Source: a virus. From it: 23,523 bases of DNA. The first letter of the stretch is position 1; the number at the start of each line of letters is the position of its first letter. Below the pieces are notes generated by a model that saw only the letters and a program-made list of their open reading frames with translations, was not told the DNA's origin and did no database searches. The DNA lies in the IMG/VR virus record IMGVR_UViG_3300012359_000047, positions 1 through 23,523 of that record. One strand, given 5' to 3'. Positions 3,715 through 22,252 of the stretch are shown in pieces. The translations under genes were made by a program, and so were the position numbers.

Positions 3715-4227
3715 ATGAGCAACGCATGGGACGAGATGAACGAAGAGATCCCCGCCGAGGTTGAAGGCGCTGAGGGCATCGCCAATCTCCGGAAGGCCTA
3801 CGAGCGAAAGTCGAAGGCCGAGAAGGAGCTACGCGAGAAGCTGTCTGCACTTGAGTCTCGGGAGCGAGAGCGGACTCTGAGTGAAACTCTCTCTGCAAAG
3901 GGTGTGAACCCGAAGCTGGCCAGTCTTTACCCGGCCAGTAGGGAGAGCACTCCGGAGAAGGTGGACGAGTGGCTGACTGAATACGCGGATGCCTTTGGCC
4001 AGGCTCCCGCACGACAGACTCCCGCTCCGCCGCAGGTCTCCCCGGAACTGCTCGACGCATACGCGCAGTTCCAGCAGCCCGGGTTTAACGCCTCACAGCA
4101 GTCCGAAGTAGACGCCATCAAGAACTACCAGTTCGGCGACTCGGGCGATGTTGAGGTGGAGTTCCGCAAGCTCCAGTCTTTCCTGCGGAACAACCCCAAC
4201 GCTGTACAGAACCCGGGCGCATACTGA
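3715..4227 (+). CDS. Scaffolding protein
   Basis: This is 170 residues from ATG 3715 (MSNAWDEM...), chosen because GGGAG lies 7 bases upstream; the frame is open further up but has no comparable start. The protein is acidic and highly charged. A coiled-coil segment covers about residues 20-60 (NLRKAYERKSKAEKELREKL and on). A Pro-rich linker sits near residues 100-112 and a helical C-terminus ends with FLRNNPNAVQ. Composition, size and position immediately before the capsid gene are typical of phage scaffolds, which guide procapsid assembly and are then lost. Assignment is by architecture and synteny, not by a diagnostic motif. Confidence 0.75.
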   Translation: MSNAWDEMNEEIPAEVEGAEGIANLRKAYERKSKAEKELREKLSALESRERERTLSETLSAKGVNPKLASLYPASRESTPEKVDEWLTEYADAFGQAPARQTPAPPQVSPELLDAYAQFQQPGFNASQQSEVDAIKNYQFGDSGDVEVEFRKLQSFLRNNPNAVQNPGAY

Positions 4228-4266
4228 CGCTCACTCACTCTCTAACACTGAAGGAGTTGTTTCCAA

Positions 4267-4725
4267 GTGGCTAACGCCTCCGAGTCAACTCCTACGTACA
4301 ACTCTTCTGAAGAAGGTGAAACCGCCCTAGAGAAGAAGTGCACTCGTTGCGGACAACTGAAGTCTGTGGAAAGCTTCTACCGTAACAACCAGGCTGTTGA
4401 TGGTTTGCAGAGTTGGTGCAAAGAGTGCCAGAAGTCAAAGAGATCTGCCGGTGACAAATGGAACCGGGACTACAGCTCTTGGAAGTCTGGTATCTGGAAG
4501 AACTTTAGGATGACTCCTGATGAGTACTTCCAGCTCCTCGAATCACAAAACGGAGTCTGTGCTATCTGTGAACAGGACGACGGAGACCGGCGTCTAGCAG
4601 TTGACCATGACCATGCGAATGGTGAAATCCGTGGCCTGCTGTGCCGGAACTGTAATGTTTGTCTCGGGCTTTTCAAGGACGAGACATCACGCCTGAAGAG
4701 AGCTATTTCGTACCTCGAAGGCTAG
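4267..4725 (+). CDS. Endonuclease VII-type HNH homing endonuclease at the capsid 5' end
   Basis: This is 152 residues from GTG 4267, with AAGGAG at 4250-4255. Residues of about 25-58 form a Zn module (CTRCGQLKSVESFYRNN...CKEC). The endonuclease VII/HNH core follows: CAICEQDD, then VDHDHANGEIRGLLCRNCN, which holds the catalytic His and the second CxxC, then LGLFKD and a helical tail ending YLEG. The first four codons (GTG GCT AAC GCC) are what the capsid gene should begin with. The same ten bases, GCTAACGCCT, recur after the stop at 4733-4742. The gene therefore appears to have landed inside the first codons of the capsid gene and to have taken over its ribosome binding site and start. Endonucleases of this type cut DNA and promote their own spread between phages. 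Confidence 0.9.
   Translation: MANASESTPTYNSSEEGETALEKKCTRCGQLKSVESFYRNNQAVDGLQSWCKECQKSKRSAGDKWNRDYSSWKSGIWKNFRMTPDEYFQLLESQNGVCAICEQDDGDRRLAVDHDHANGEIRGLLCRNCNVCLGLFKDETSRLKRAISYLEG
4270..4279 (+). repeat. Direct repeat, left copy (capsid 5' sequence)
   Basis: GCTAACGCCT follows the GTG of the endonuclease gene. The identical ten bases occur at 4733-4742 at the start of the capsid coding sequence. The pair brackets the endonuclease insertion. Confidence 0.8.
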
Positions 4726-4729
4726 GATC

Positions 4730-5695
4730 ATAGCTAACGCCTATACTGGAACTGCTGCTGTCAGCAATGTGGTGCAGACCGCCTATGACCGGATGGTTGA
4801 GTTTGCGCTGCGTTCGCAGCCGCTCTTCCGCCAGGGTGCTGACAAGAAGCCCGCTGAGCAGGCCATGCCTGGCTCGTCTGTGGTCCTGGAAGTCTACCAG
4901 GATCTTGCCCAGGTCACTTCGACCCTCACTGAGACTGTGGACCCCGACGCTGTTGCGATCGGCAACCCCACCACGGTTTCCATCACCCTGAACGAGTACG
5001 GCAACACGGTCCTCCAGACCCGTCTGCTGAACCTCTTCAGCTTCACTGACGTGGCTCCGGCCATCACCAACCAGGTCGCCTACAACATGGCGAACTCCAT
5101 CGACCTCGTGGTCCAGAACGTCCTGCGTGCTGGCATTACGAACATCATCATGGAGGCTGCGGGTGCGCTGGTTCCCTCTGGCGGTACCATCACGAACATC
5201 GTCGGCACTGACGTGCTGAAGTCCCGTGATGTGCGTGCGGCCGTGGCCCAGCTTCGCAACAACCAGGCTGTGCCGAAGAAGAATTCCCTGTACTACACCG
5301 CCGTCCACCCGCTGGTCTCTTACGACCTTCGGTCGGAGACCGGTGACACGGGATGGCGTCAGCCGCACGACTACTCTGCTCCTGGCTCGATCTGGGCTGG
5401 AGAGATCGGCGAGTACGAGGGTGCCTTCTTCGTGGAGACCCCGCGTGCCTTCTCGGCTCAGGCCGGTTCCGGTGCGGGTGCTTCGCAGATCCGGGTGTTC
5501 AACACCTACGTGCTCGGCCAGCAGGCCCTCGCGGAAGCCCTCTCCGAGGAGTTCCACGTGGTCTTCGGTCCGGTCGTGGACAAGCTCATGCGCTTCCGGC
5601 CGGTCGGCTGGTACGGCGTCGCTGGCTGGTCCATCTACCGTACCGCTGCCAGCCAGATGATCCAGACTGCCGCCACGCTGCGCCAGACTGTCTAA
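4730..5695 (+). CDS. Major capsid protein, N4-gp56 family, with apparent ATA start
   Basis: The coding frame gives (M)ANAYTGTAAVSNVV, then QTAYDRMVEFALRSQPLFR, DKKPAEQAMPGSSVVLEVYQDL, LNEYGNTVLQT, GEIGEYEGAFFVETPRAF and GPVVDKLMRFRPVGWYGVAGW. These blocks are characteristic of N4-gp56 type major capsid proteins, and the length of about 321 residues fits. Family members begin near MANA..., which places the start at 4730, where the codon is ATA. The frame is open only back to 4697 and has no ATG, GTG, TTG or CTG before GTG 4769, which would delete 13 conserved residues. GAAGG at 4717-4721 lies 8 bases before ATA, and the endonuclease stop is 4 bases upstream, so termination-reinitiation is possible. 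A sequencing error (ATG read as ATA) cannot be excluded. Confidence 0.9.
   Translation: MANAYTGTAAVSNVVQTAYDRMVEFALRSQPLFRQGADKKPAEQAMPGSSVVLEVYQDLAQVTSTLTETVDPDAVAIGNPTTVSITLNEYGNTVLQTRLLNLFSFTDVAPAITNQVAYNMANSIDLVVQNVLRAGITNIIMEAAGALVPSGGTITNIVGTDVLKSRDVRAAVAQLRNNQAVPKKNSLYYTAVHPLVSYDLRSETGDTGWRQPHDYSAPGSIWAGEIGEYEGAFFVETPRAFSAQAGSGAGASQIRVFNTYVLGQQALAEALSEEFHVVFGPVVDKLMRFRPVGWYGVAGWSIYRTAASQMIQTAATLRQTV
4733..4742 (+). repeat. Direct repeat, right copy (capsid codons 2-5)
   Basis: GCTAACGCCT is identical to 4270-4279 and encodes ANA plus the first base of the next codon in the capsid frame. It marks the right edge of the endonuclease insertion. Confidence 0.8.
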
Positions 5696-5710
5696 CTATG
5701 GGAGCCCGCC

Positions 5711-6745
5711 TTGCCCACCATCAAAGCCTTTACTACCACCAGTGGTACTTCCACCAATGCAACTTTCACGCTAGCAAGTAACCCCGTGGTAGGGGACCTG
5801 ATGGTGGCATGGCTGGCCACCGACACCCCGCTGTCCATCCACCAGCCGCTGATCAGCACCACCAACATTCAGGATCAGTGGGTGCCTCTCTTCGGTGCGC
5901 AGGATGCGCAGCAGCACGATGTGGACGGAGAAGGTGGCCTTCGGCTGTACTGCTTCATGAAGACAGCCAACGCCACCGACGCCACCACCAATGTCTTCAC
6001 CTTCACCTTCCTGCCGTACACGGATAACTCCGGGCAGAAGGGGGTGCCTCAGTGGCCCACGACAGACTTTGTGGGCATCCTGGCGACCTACTTGACCAGC
6101 AGCACGGGCTTCGCTGGCCTGGATACAGCAGCACCCCAGGTCCAGCAGCCGAACACCAACAGTATGGTGTTCGCACTCCCTTCGGTGGACACCAACGGAG
6201 GCAGTGACGTGTTCTGGTCTGCGATCGCCGGGCTGAGGATGGGTGTTCCCACGAGCACAGATCCTGCGGCCACAGTGGTCACCTCGGTGACCCTGGCTGC
6301 GCCTACGTACGCTACCACACCACTGTCGCTGTACCTCTTCGGAAGCCCGTACAGCGCCTCTGAGTATCCCTTCCGGTTCCAGACCTCCCAAGTGCCAACC
6401 GCTGTCCTGACGGGTCTCACAGGCCTTCAGGACGCCTCTAACTGGTACTACAACGGCCCCTTCGTCCGTGAGGGATATCCGTATGAGGGTCCGGACCAGA
6501 TGCTCCTGCTCAGGTATCCGTACCACTGGGCCTACACGGTCCTCAAGACCGCAGGCATCCTGACCATCGGGCAGTTCTTCTCACAGGACCAGCTCAACGC
6601 AGCGGACGTTGTGTACTACCAGAACCAGTTGATCCCAGAGGCTGACCGGGATGCAATCCTGGCAGCCGGTATCGGCGGAGACTTCCGCCCCTCCATCCAA
6701 GTGCCAGGGCAGTACGTGAATCCCTGGAAGTACGTTCCGATCTAA
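5711..6745 (+). CDS. Structural protein after capsid (head or head-tail, beta-rich)
   Basis: This is 344 residues from TTG 5711, with GGGAG at 5699-5703; no ATG in this frame lies close by. Residues 1-210 look beta-rich and Thr/Ser/Ala-rich, as in virion surface proteins. The last 75 or so residues are helical (YPYHWAYTVLKTAGILTIGQFF...RDAILAAGIGGDF). They contain an LKxAGIxTIGQ turn that resembles a helix-hairpin-helix element. The gene is directly downstream of the capsid gene, so it may be a head fibre, decoration or connector protein. No named family was recognised. Confidence 0.8.
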   Translation: MPTIKAFTTTSGTSTNATFTLASNPVVGDLMVAWLATDTPLSIHQPLISTTNIQDQWVPLFGAQDAQQHDVDGEGGLRLYCFMKTANATDATTNVFTFTFLPYTDNSGQKGVPQWPTTDFVGILATYLTSSTGFAGLDTAAPQVQQPNTNSMVFALPSVDTNGGSDVFWSAIAGLRMGVPTSTDPAATVVTSVTLAAPTYATTPLSLYLFGSPYSASEYPFRFQTSQVPTAVLTGLTGLQDASNWYYNGPFVREGYPYEGPDQMLLLRYPYHWAYTVLKTAGILTIGQFFSQDQLNAADVVYYQNQLIPEADRDAILAAGIGGDFRPSIQVPGQYVNPWKYVPI

Positions 6746-6754
6746 GGAGATCGA

Positions 6755-6943
6755 ATGGCTGCCAAACCGAATAAGAAGGCTCCTCTGGGTCAGGGTGGCC
6801 GCTTCGCGGCCGTAGCCAAGGCTGCGGGTGGAGGCAAGAAGGGCGCAGCCATTGCGGCTGCGGCTGGTCGTAAGAAGTACGGCGCGGAGGGTATGGCCAA
6901 GCTTTCCGCGAAGGGCAAGAGAGATGCTAAGCGCGGGAAGTAG
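6755..6943 (+). CDS. Small basic Lys/Ala/Gly-rich protein
   Basis: This protein has 62 residues, and its ATG 6755 is preceded by AAGGAG. It is very basic and low in complexity: KPNKKAPLGQGGRFAAVAKA, then GGGKKGAAIAAAAGRKKYG, then GMAKLSAKGKRDAKRGK. The second half weakly recalls KGG-type short repeats. A nucleic-acid-binding or virion-packaged role would fit its charge, but this is only an inference. Its last 17 bases overlap the 3' end of the opposite-strand HNH gene. Confidence 0.7.
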   Translation: MAAKPNKKAPLGQGGRFAAVAKAAGGGKKGAAIAAAAGRKKYGAEGMAKLSAKGKRDAKRGK

Positions 6944-7250
6944 CGTGCCTCAAAGATTGGCCACAGCTAGAAGAACAGCACCTAGTTTTAGGGTAGCCCA
7001 ACCTCCGCTGGTATAGCTTCCCGCACCACTCACATGTACGATCCTCGTAGGTAACCGGGCGGGGTTCCTTGGGAAGATTTTCCCAGCACTTGTGCTCTAT
7101 CTGATGACAACGCTTGCAGAGTGTCTCCAGATTACTAGGGTCGTCATTAGTAAAATTCTCATCCATGTGGTGCACTACGAGGAAGCGGTTACTGCCGCAT
7201 CGGGCACAAGCACCTTGTAGGTGCTGCCGGTACTCCTTGAAATTACGCAT
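6927..7250 (-). CDS. HNH endonuclease on the opposite strand
   Basis: This 107-residue protein on the minus strand starts at ATG 7250. The HNH core comprises CARCGSNRFLVVHHMDEN with the catalytic His pair, then NDDPSNLETLCKRCHQIEH, giving two CxxC pairs for zinc. A second Zn ribbon follows (CEWCGKLY...CCSSSCGQS). It lies alone against the direction of the virion block, and its tail overlaps the end of the plus-strand gene at 6755-6943. It is most simply a free-standing homing endonuclease, the second of three in the window. Confidence 0.85.
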   Translation of the reverse strand: MRNFKEYRQHLQGACARCGSNRFLVVHHMDENFTNDDPSNLETLCKRCHQIEHKCWENLPKEPRPVTYEDRTCEWCGKLYQRRLGYPKTRCCSSSCGQSLRHATSRA

Positions 7251-18147: not shown

Positions 18148-18161
18148 GACATCTCCTTTCG

Positions 18162-18237
18162 TAGCGGTGATCGGATTCGAACCGATGATCTCTGCGTTAT
18201 GAGCGCAGCGGGGACGACCGAACTCCCCTACACCGCG
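18162..18237 (-). tRNA. tRNA with anticodon CAU, initiator-like (fMet)
   Basis: 76 bases fold as a complete cloverleaf. The acceptor is CGCGGTG with CACCGCT, leaving C1 and U72 unpaired, with A73 and no encoded CCA. The D stem is GGGG/CCCC with GG in the loop. The anticodon stem is CTGCG/CGCAG with loop CTCATAA (CAU). The variable loop is 5 bases, and the T arm is ATCGG-TTCGAAT-CCGAT. The unpaired 1:72 and a purine-11:pyrimidine-24 pair (G11:C24) are marks of bacterial initiator tRNAs. The three pairs next to the anticodon loop are all G/C but read G-C, C-G, G-C instead of three G-C. Alternatives are elongator Met or Ile2. It lies inside the minus operon, just before the ribosome binding site of the next gene. 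Confidence 0.88.
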
Positions 18238-21817: not shown

Positions 21818-21851
21818 GATTACCTTTCGTCTGCCTGGCCGTGAGCAGTGA
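21810..21851 (+). pseudogene. Cut-off 5' end of the gene now at 22252
   Basis: ATG 21810 starts MPEITFRLPGREQ and stops at TGA 21849-21851. The gene after the HNH insertion begins MPDLTFRLPGNAQ. The 13 residues match at 9 positions, while the bases differ mostly at third codon positions. This is the left remnant of the target gene after insertion of the HNH gene. It overlaps the nuclease stop by 8 bases (ATGCCTGA), the same arrangement as the two junctions upstream. Confidence 0.85.
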
Positions 21852-22252
21852 TCCCTGAGTGGGACAGGTTCTGGGCAAAAGTTTCGGCCGAGGGTGACTG
21901 TTGGATCTGGACTGCCCAGATCACGGCTAACGGGTACGGGGCTTTTCGTTCCAAGGGTCGAGGCGCTTACGCGCATCGGGTCTCGTATGAGTTTATGGTG
22001 GCCGAGATTCCGGAGGGGCTGCATATTGATCATCTATGCAGGAACCGGAAGTGCGTCAACCCAGACCACCTAGATCCTGTGACAAAGCGAGAAAATGACC
22101 GGCGCAGGCCCCCGAAGACCCATTGCCCCAAGATGCATATGTATGACGAACAGAACACGTATTTCGATAAACTTGGCGTGAAGGTCTGTAGGGCCTGTGG
22201 CCGAGATCGTGCGCGTAAAAAGTACCGGACCCTCCACGGATTGGAAGTTTGA
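21848..22252 (+). CDS. HNH homing endonuclease inserted at a gene's 5' end
   Basis: This is 134 residues from GTG 21848, overlapping the remnant's stop as GTGA. The HNH pattern is clear: WDRFWAKVSAEGDCWIWTAQ, NGYGAFR, AHRVSYEFMVAEIPEGLHIDHLCRNRKCVNPDHLDPVTKREN in outline. The His of IDH is the catalytic His and NPDHL holds the N and H. A C-terminal Zn motif (THCPKMHMY...CRACGRDRARKKY) follows. Flanking copies of the target gene's first codons mark it as a mobile insertion. Its codon choice is less GC-rich than that of its neighbours. Confidence 0.92.
   Translation: MIPEWDRFWAKVSAEGDCWIWTAQITANGYGAFRSKGRGAYAHRVSYEFMVAEIPEGLHIDHLCRNRKCVNPDHLDPVTKRENDRRRPPKTHCPKMHMYDEQNTYFDKLGVKVCRACGRDRARKKYRTLHGLEV

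Follow-up and report, generated by a model that had tools for sequence, protein, structure and literature searches.

A putative homing endonuclease at the start of a phage major capsid gene that carries ATA at the expected start codon

The window analysed here is the complete stretch of 23,523 nt of the virus record IMGVR_UViG_3300012359_000047 from IMG/VR. It carries a gene for a major capsid protein (MCP) of the N4-gp56 family, in which the position of the start codon is occupied by ATA and which is directly preceded by a gene for an Endonuclease VII-type HNH protein (Table 1). The MCP was assigned by NCBIfam TIGR04387 (87.4 bits at a cut-off of 60) and also by Pfam PF13252. It resembles the MCPs of the Beephvirinae, with the highest amino acid identity (59.3%) to Streptomyces phage Manuel. 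The endonuclease matches PF02945 with 84.7 bits (Pfam gathering cut-off 23.6) and none of the NCBIfam models. Its matches in PDB are T4 endonuclease VII and Hpy99I, and its closest phage relatives include endonucleases annotated beside internal virion protein genes in Klebsiella and Yersinia phages.

In the MCP frame no ATG, GTG, TTG or CTG lies between the upstream in-frame stop and position 4769; upstream of the start this frame is open for 12 codons only and holds none of the usual start codons. The endonuclease gene opens with GTG GCT AAC GCC T, which copies the MCP start, while the MCP gene itself reads ATA GCT AAC GCC T. The repeat GCTAACGCCT occurs exactly twice on the plus strand of the window (4270 and 4733). 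The Shine-Dalgarno sequence AAGGAG ahead of the endonuclease GTG (duplex energy -9.0 kcal/mol) is found at the same position ahead of the MCP start in the relatives L007-L011. A second, Shine-Dalgarno-like motif, GAAGG, is located within the end of the endonuclease gene at a spacing of 8 nt to the ATA. The missing start, the duplicated codons, the GAAGG and the nearby stop had been pointed out by a sequence-only reading of the window, and all are confirmed in the sequence. That reading placed the expected start by the N-terminus MANA usual in this capsid family, which holds as well: A-N-A (GCN AAY GCN) forms residues 2-4 in 79 of 80 relatives, the remaining locus (L013) ending before that point.

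Table 1. Features at the junction of endonuclease and MCP gene (positions in the window, duplex energies in kcal/mol).
Feature	Position	Strand	Remarks
Upstream gene	3715..4227	+	171 codons including stop, ATG at 3715; scaffold position by synteny with Streptomyces phages
AAGGAG, Shine-Dalgarno	4251..4256	+	ahead of the endonuclease GTG; in relatives used for the MCP
Endonuclease VII-type HNH gene	4267..4725	+	152 codons, GTG 4267 to TAG 4723-4725
Direct repeat GCTAACGCCT, 5' copy	4270..4279	+	exact match
Direct repeat GCTAACGCCT, 3' copy	4733..4742	+	from MCP codon 2 onward
GAAGG, Shine-Dalgarno-like	4717..4721	+	within the last endonuclease codons (..YLEG); duplex -4.1
Endonuclease stop TAG	4723..4725	+	first base 7 nt ahead of first base of ATA; ends 4 nt before ATA
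ATC, in frame, adjoining ATA on its 5' side	4727..4729	+	Ile codon, second candidate near-cognate start
ATA at MCP start position	4730..4732	+	followed by GCT AAC GCC T
N4-gp56 family MCP	4730..5695	+	321 residues counting the start; stop 5693-5695
GTG, first canonical in-frame start	4769..4771	+	codon 14; would give a shortened MCP; no Shine-Dalgarno (-0.6)

Relatives were collected in several ways. A similarity scan yielded 80 loci of 295 relatives, selected neither by N-terminus nor by start codon. Out of its 79 readable starts 69 are canonical and 10 non-canonical (L002-L006, L031, L033, L073, L076, L077). Further scans used patterns in which codon 2 of the MCP is preceded by a base other than G; of the stretches they matched, 11 of 55, 1 of 37 and 9 of 15 were MCP genes, some of them already known. 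Since these patterns required most of residues 2-8 in addition to the non-G base, other starts ending in G (e.g. TCG) and altered N-termini would escape them; a scan for MCP starts ending in G covered a sample of its matches. A peptide pattern matched 42 stretches in genome contigs with no MCP relative among them. Queries with the endonucleases of L031 and L073 led to two and six loci, respectively, five of these eight being known MCP junctions and three lacking an MCP. The start was anchored on GCN AAY GCN, whereby three of 207 MCP matches (the cut-off L013, L086 and L087) could not be anchored and were excluded. Two of these show peculiarities of their own. For L087 (Streptomyces phage JXY1) two open reading frames (ORFs) are annotated in place of a single MCP gene, perhaps owing to a frameshift or a sequencing error. 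In L086 (OX376640.1, 3001-4182) the match falls into two pieces and is ~230 nt longer than expected, perhaps owing to an insertion, with no match in Rfam.

Dereplication resulted in 131 MCP genes with the starts ATG (95), GTG (18), TTG (2), ATA (9), ATC (4), TCG (2) and GTA (1); owing to the pattern scans, non-canonical starts are over-represented among these genes and the proportions are no census. The 16 non-canonical genes are from IMG/VR. Triplets other than Ile codons are TCG in L031 and L033 and GTA in L073.

An endonuclease gene directly precedes the MCP in 24 of the 32 loci with a non-canonical start, corresponding to 17 of 24 contigs, several of them represented twice. In contrast, 174 canonical loci (133 distinct) with 150 nt or more of upstream sequence, 166 of them with 500 nt, yielded no Endonuclease VII match upstream of the MCP. 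The similarity scan taken separately gives the same picture: all eight endonuclease-bearing loci are non-canonical, while the endonuclease is found in none of the 66 canonical loci for which 150 nt or more of upstream sequence is present. After dereplication non-canonical starts are present in 10 of 10 endonuclease-bearing rows versus 6 of 121 endonuclease-free rows (Fisher p = 2.8e-11, relatedness ignored). Relatedness was addressed by an MCP tree, built by a quick method with SH-aLRT (approximate likelihood ratio test) support only and excluding the first 14 codons after the start; L330 (199 residues) was left out as too short and is represented by L337. On this tree the non-canonical start requires 12 changes, 11 of them forced by well-supported branches. 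Presence of the endonuclease requires 9 changes and is, with 10 of 131 rows, patchy at a single site. Nine independent pairs could be formed on the tree, six to seven of which point in the same direction, none in the opposite one and two to three show no difference (p 0.016-0.031).

At the junction, the distance of the endonuclease stop from the MCP start codon, taken between their first bases, is -7 nt (one row), -4 nt (two), +1 nt (five) or +5 nt (two). All ten rows thus hold the stop within -7 to +5 nt of the start, which fits termination-coupled reinitiation. In L119, L335, L337 and L342 the ATA is even made by the end of the endonuclease gene, AAA TAG C, such that MCP codon 2 begins with the last G of the stop; GTA in L073 is formed likewise from AGG TAG C. 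A GAAGG- or AAGGG-like stretch from the final endonuclease codons precedes the start triplet in most rows. A 5' copy of the MCP start is present in the window and L119 and absent in L031, L033, L073, L097, L161, L335 and L337. As a separate observation, L119 carries an MCP-like Shine-Dalgarno region followed by ATG GCT AAC GCC TTT AC ~500 nt upstream of its MCP ATA, opening a 13-codon ORF ahead of the endonuclease. This region contains a 9-nt inverted repeat (GTCCTTTCG/CGAAAGGAC), possibly a regulatory hairpin. In L342, which is a single contig and counts among the ten endonuclease-bearing rows, the catalytic middle of the endonuclease is gone by an in-frame deletion. A 36-codon ORF starting with GTG is left, which ends with AAATAGC and thereby keeps the same overlap of stop and ATA. 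This is what would be expected if the endonuclease frame and its end mattered for the MCP without the enzyme.

Six lineages (L005/L006, L115, L334, L332, L333 and L338) have ATA or ATC ~10 nt after a Shine-Dalgarno sequence although the endonuclease is absent. L005/L006 is the sister of the window (MCP DNA identity 95%) and has its ATA behind a normal Shine-Dalgarno, and L115 is the sister of the endonuclease-bearing L335. An in-frame TAG adjoins the ATA of L115, and L333 has an in-frame TGA two codons before its ATC, hence an upstream start is excluded in both. The ATC-started MCP gene of L332 is, as an aside, interrupted twice (~5123-5369, ~250 nt, and ~5654-5890), the second interruption being a group I intron match (RF00028, 53.3 bits).

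These lineages qualify two proposals of the sequence-only reading, which was otherwise mostly right. It had ascribed the loss of the start codon to the endonuclease, and this is in line with all 24 endonuclease-preceded loci being non-canonical; the comparison with endonuclease-free relatives, which it had called for, agrees for the 174 canonical loci, yet the closest relative of the window, L005, keeps the ATA. Likewise the idea of reinitiation agrees with the tight spacing of stop and start, but initiation at AUA seemingly does not need reinitiation, given the ATA or ATC at a usable distance from a Shine-Dalgarno in six endonuclease-free lineages. The endonuclease is thus not required for the ATA, and either the ATA or the endonuclease may have come first. 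The endonuclease-free lineages may be remains after loss or represent the state before arrival. Five of them share TGAGTNNNAT(A/C)GC, four of these five together with GGATGTGAG, which several endonuclease inserts carry at their 5' end as well. The shared motifs hint at loss of the endonuclease.

We consider it probable that a homing endonuclease has replaced the MCP start and that the MCP is made by termination-coupled initiation, usually at the near-cognate AUA or AUC. A free-standing Endonuclease VII/HNH homing endonuclease would have inserted repeatedly at one exact point, the MCP start directly before codon 2 (GCN AAY GCN), leaving the MCP without AUG, GUG or UUG. Ribosomes would terminate at the endonuclease stop and, only few bases away, initiate again at the triplet joined to codon 2. 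This triplet, usually a near-cognate Ile codon, would be read by formylmethionyl-tRNA, with formylmethionine as the presumed first residue. GAAGG or AAGGG in the last endonuclease codons would assist the restart in most cases. A later stage may be represented by L342, where the endonuclease core is lost and the leader ORF retained, and a possible last stage by the six endonuclease-free lineages, with full loss and AUA or AUC behind an ordinary Shine-Dalgarno.

Several observations weigh against this reading and are taken together here with the alternatives that some of them favour. The first concerns the sequences themselves. The non-canonical ones are all metagenome assemblies, and none of nine isolates checked, all Streptomyces phages (63 records matched), shows such a start, GTG being used in nine of nine (L085, L358-L365). 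One could hence suspect sequencing or assembly errors or a dead phage. This is hardly credible, considering that the MCP is intact and conserved, that the ATA is identical in four contigs of the virus, and that at least 11 changes have occurred across the family. Over endonuclease and MCP, L002 and L003 differ from the window at 0 of 1426 nt and L004 at 6 of 1426 nt; these are separate metagenome assemblies of the same virus, possibly from one site. A second intact MCP gene was considered and rejected: 12 of 13 records have a single MCP match, and the two matches in record G032 are pieces of one interrupted MCP.

The second group of observations concerns strength and position of initiation. 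The median Shine-Dalgarno energy of the 16 non-canonical rows is -4.9 kcal/mol versus -8.2 kcal/mol for canonical ones, and L342 shows the weakest pairing of all (-1.1 kcal/mol). As poor start codons, TCG (L031, L033) and GTA (L073) strain a single rule. In E. coli AUA is cited as reaching up to 1% of AUG (PMC12864459 citing Hecht 2017; this and the other papers are cited from excerpts), while the MCP must be abundant. Moreover, the Ile triplet has competitors in some endonuclease-free lineages. L332, L334 and L338 hold an in-frame GTG three codons before the ATA or ATC as the sole usual upstream start, and L005 has in-frame CTG three and six codons before its ATA. The near GTG and the near CTG directly abut the Shine-Dalgarno.

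Competitors are found downstream, too. ATG or GTG stands at codon 11 in 14 of the 16 non-canonical rows, in L338 behind a Shine-Dalgarno-like stretch of -5.7 kcal/mol, and ribosomes can resume some distance past a stop. The MCP could therefore be shortened, with translation from the next in-frame ATG or GTG, located at codon 11 in most relatives and at 4769 (GTG) in the window, and the ATA belonging to a leader. We regard this as unlikely. ATG at codon 11 is common in canonical relatives as well (72 of 115), and the median Shine-Dalgarno energy of codon 11 is the same as in canonical genes (-1.1 kcal/mol). The window has GTC at this codon, and its GTG 4769 shows only -0.6 kcal/mol and is preceded by an out-of-frame ATG at 4767. 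Codons 2-10 have changed mostly synonymously. Compared to the nearest canonical relative, the five rows that came from the similarity scan (window, L005, L031, L033, L073) show 13 synonymous and 2 non-synonymous changes in codons 2-10 and 44 and 9, respectively, in codons 11-61. For all 16 non-canonical rows the counts are 57 to 10 in codons 2-10 versus 181 to 41 downstream, whereby the former is biased because 11 of 16 rows were retrieved by patterns demanding most of those residues. By its pattern of change the segment behaves as coding sequence, though some of the changes may be older than the loss of the start. Any virion N-terminal peptide ANAYTGTAAVSNVVQ would be at odds with a shortened MCP.

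The 5' copies of the MCP start in the window and L119 suggest a different escape: if RNA splicing, ribosome hopping or DNA deletion eliminated or skipped the insert between the GCTAACGCCT copies, GTG GCT AAC GCC TAT would be restored and the joined copies would yield a perfect MCP. Real introns do exist in actinophage MCPs, as in LittleE (PMC3706429) and seemingly in L332 with its group I match. Still, we judge such a removal quite improbable. The endonuclease ORF fills nearly all of the 463-nt insert, and Rfam reveals no group I or II match in it even at E 5. No intron match at gathering thresholds was obtained for L031, L033, L073, L097, L119, L161, L335 and L337 by the same search that finds the intron of L332 (L330, L340 and L342 were omitted from it). 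L031, L073, L097, L335 and L337 lack a 5' copy of the MCP codons, and in L005 and L115, which have ATA as well, there is no insert that could be removed. A search of IMG/VR for the joined sequence without the endonuclease did not find it, all three matches being insert-bearing contigs.

Stop and start being only few bases apart, ribosomes might also shift frame near the endonuclease end and produce an endonuclease-MCP fusion; in L073 an A-rich stretch precedes the stop. However, the MCP lies in +1 in the window, L031, L033, L097 and L161 and in -1 in L073, L119, L335, L337 and L342, so that the required shift would differ by lineage. It would moreover put an endonuclease on capsid subunits, and the endonuclease-free ATA/ATC lineages could not use it. 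We hold such a fusion to be very improbable.

Initiator tRNAs typically have a first base unpaired with position 72 and a purine-pyrimidine 11-24 pair. Both features are read in a tRNA-Met (CAU) of the window (18161-18237, minus strand). A phage-encoded initiator tRNA was nevertheless dismissed as explanation, as a similar CAU tRNA is present in the ATG-start relative G007 and there is no correlation with ATA. No Met tRNA was seen in the examined part of the tRNA matches from the ATA-start records G002 and G003.

As to neighbouring genes, a Pfam search assigned no family to the product of the gene upstream of the endonuclease; the gene at the same position in phage Dennebes is annotated as scaffolding protein. 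Two more HNH genes are found in the window, 6927-7250 (minus strand, PF01844) and 21848-22252 (plus strand, PF13392), giving at least three in 23.5 kb.

Initiation at AUA has precedents. In S. aureus AUA starts are established for infC, ccpN and citZ, with tested reporters at ~10%, up to 30%, of AUG (PMC13009471). The natural AUA/AUU starts of infC, ccpN, citZ and cvfC1 resemble the start proposed for the window in the use of AUA, and infC, ccpN and cvfC1 have an extended Shine-Dalgarno; they lower expression, in contrast to the window gene, which encodes the main virion protein (PMC13009471). Changing ATG to ATA in E. coli rpoS lowered RpoS up to 5-fold only (PMC12864459). When reinitiating ribosomes of a eukaryotic virus system are left without AUG, they seem to start at an AUA close by (PMC3035654). 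An abundant MCP made from AUA would be surprising, since the cited AUA cases show weak or attenuated expression.

Regarding the endonuclease, the free-standing, intronless seg and mob endonucleases of T-even phages are alike in placing an HNH gene between conserved phage genes and using an existing transcript (PMC2988022). T4 free-standing endonucleases can contain promoters of the downstream essential gene, which is said to favour their retention, and mobE overlaps the upstream stop (UAAUGA; PMC2988022). Capture of the MCP start would be the translational counterpart of these promoter-carrying endonucleases. F-CphI of cyanophage S-PM2, annotated as homing endonuclease, shares 39.9% amino acid identity over 86% of the window endonuclease, but its locus differs (label Cyanophage Functional RNA 1 nearby). 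The nearest actinophage precedents we found, going by excerpts, are LittleE and ShiLan. In mycobacteriophage LittleE a group I intron, likewise an endonuclease-bearing mobile element, interrupts the MCP gene; it is spliced (reverse transcription PCR) and has its endonuclease frame on the opposite strand, whereas in the window no ribozyme is detected, the site is between codons 1 and 2 and the ORF is in sense (PMC3706429). ShiLan has a hidden HNH insertion in a phage gene, also with self-splicing signals undetected; there the host frame is open through the insert, while the MCP frame of the window is closed 12 codons upstream (PMC11855218). Among the open-access papers listed by literature searches, titles and abstract openings revealed neither the loss of an MCP start codon to an endonuclease nor an AUA-started phage MCP.

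AUA and AUC are thought to be weak, expression-lowering starts, and here they appear to initiate the most abundant protein of a phage group, after at least 11 switches. If true, start codons would be chosen far less strictly by ribosomes that come from a termination event or initiate behind certain Shine-Dalgarno sites. A selfish endonuclease would moreover have a new way to resist loss, via its hold on a translation start rather than on a promoter alone. Gene callers limited to ATG, GTG and TTG will cut these capsids short. Tentatively, one may go further. The endonuclease family could persist by capturing the start of an essential and very abundant protein, such that capsid synthesis depends entirely on termination-coupled initiation at any triplet next to codon 2 (AUA, AUC, GUA, even UCG) and the frame cannot be lost until AUA or AUC behind a good Shine-Dalgarno takes over. 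This could be so, though we lean slightly against it. If true, it would represent a start-codon-relaxed mode of high-level bacterial translation combined with a translational selfish-gene addiction, and this soil phage group may depend on its parasite endonuclease to make its shell.
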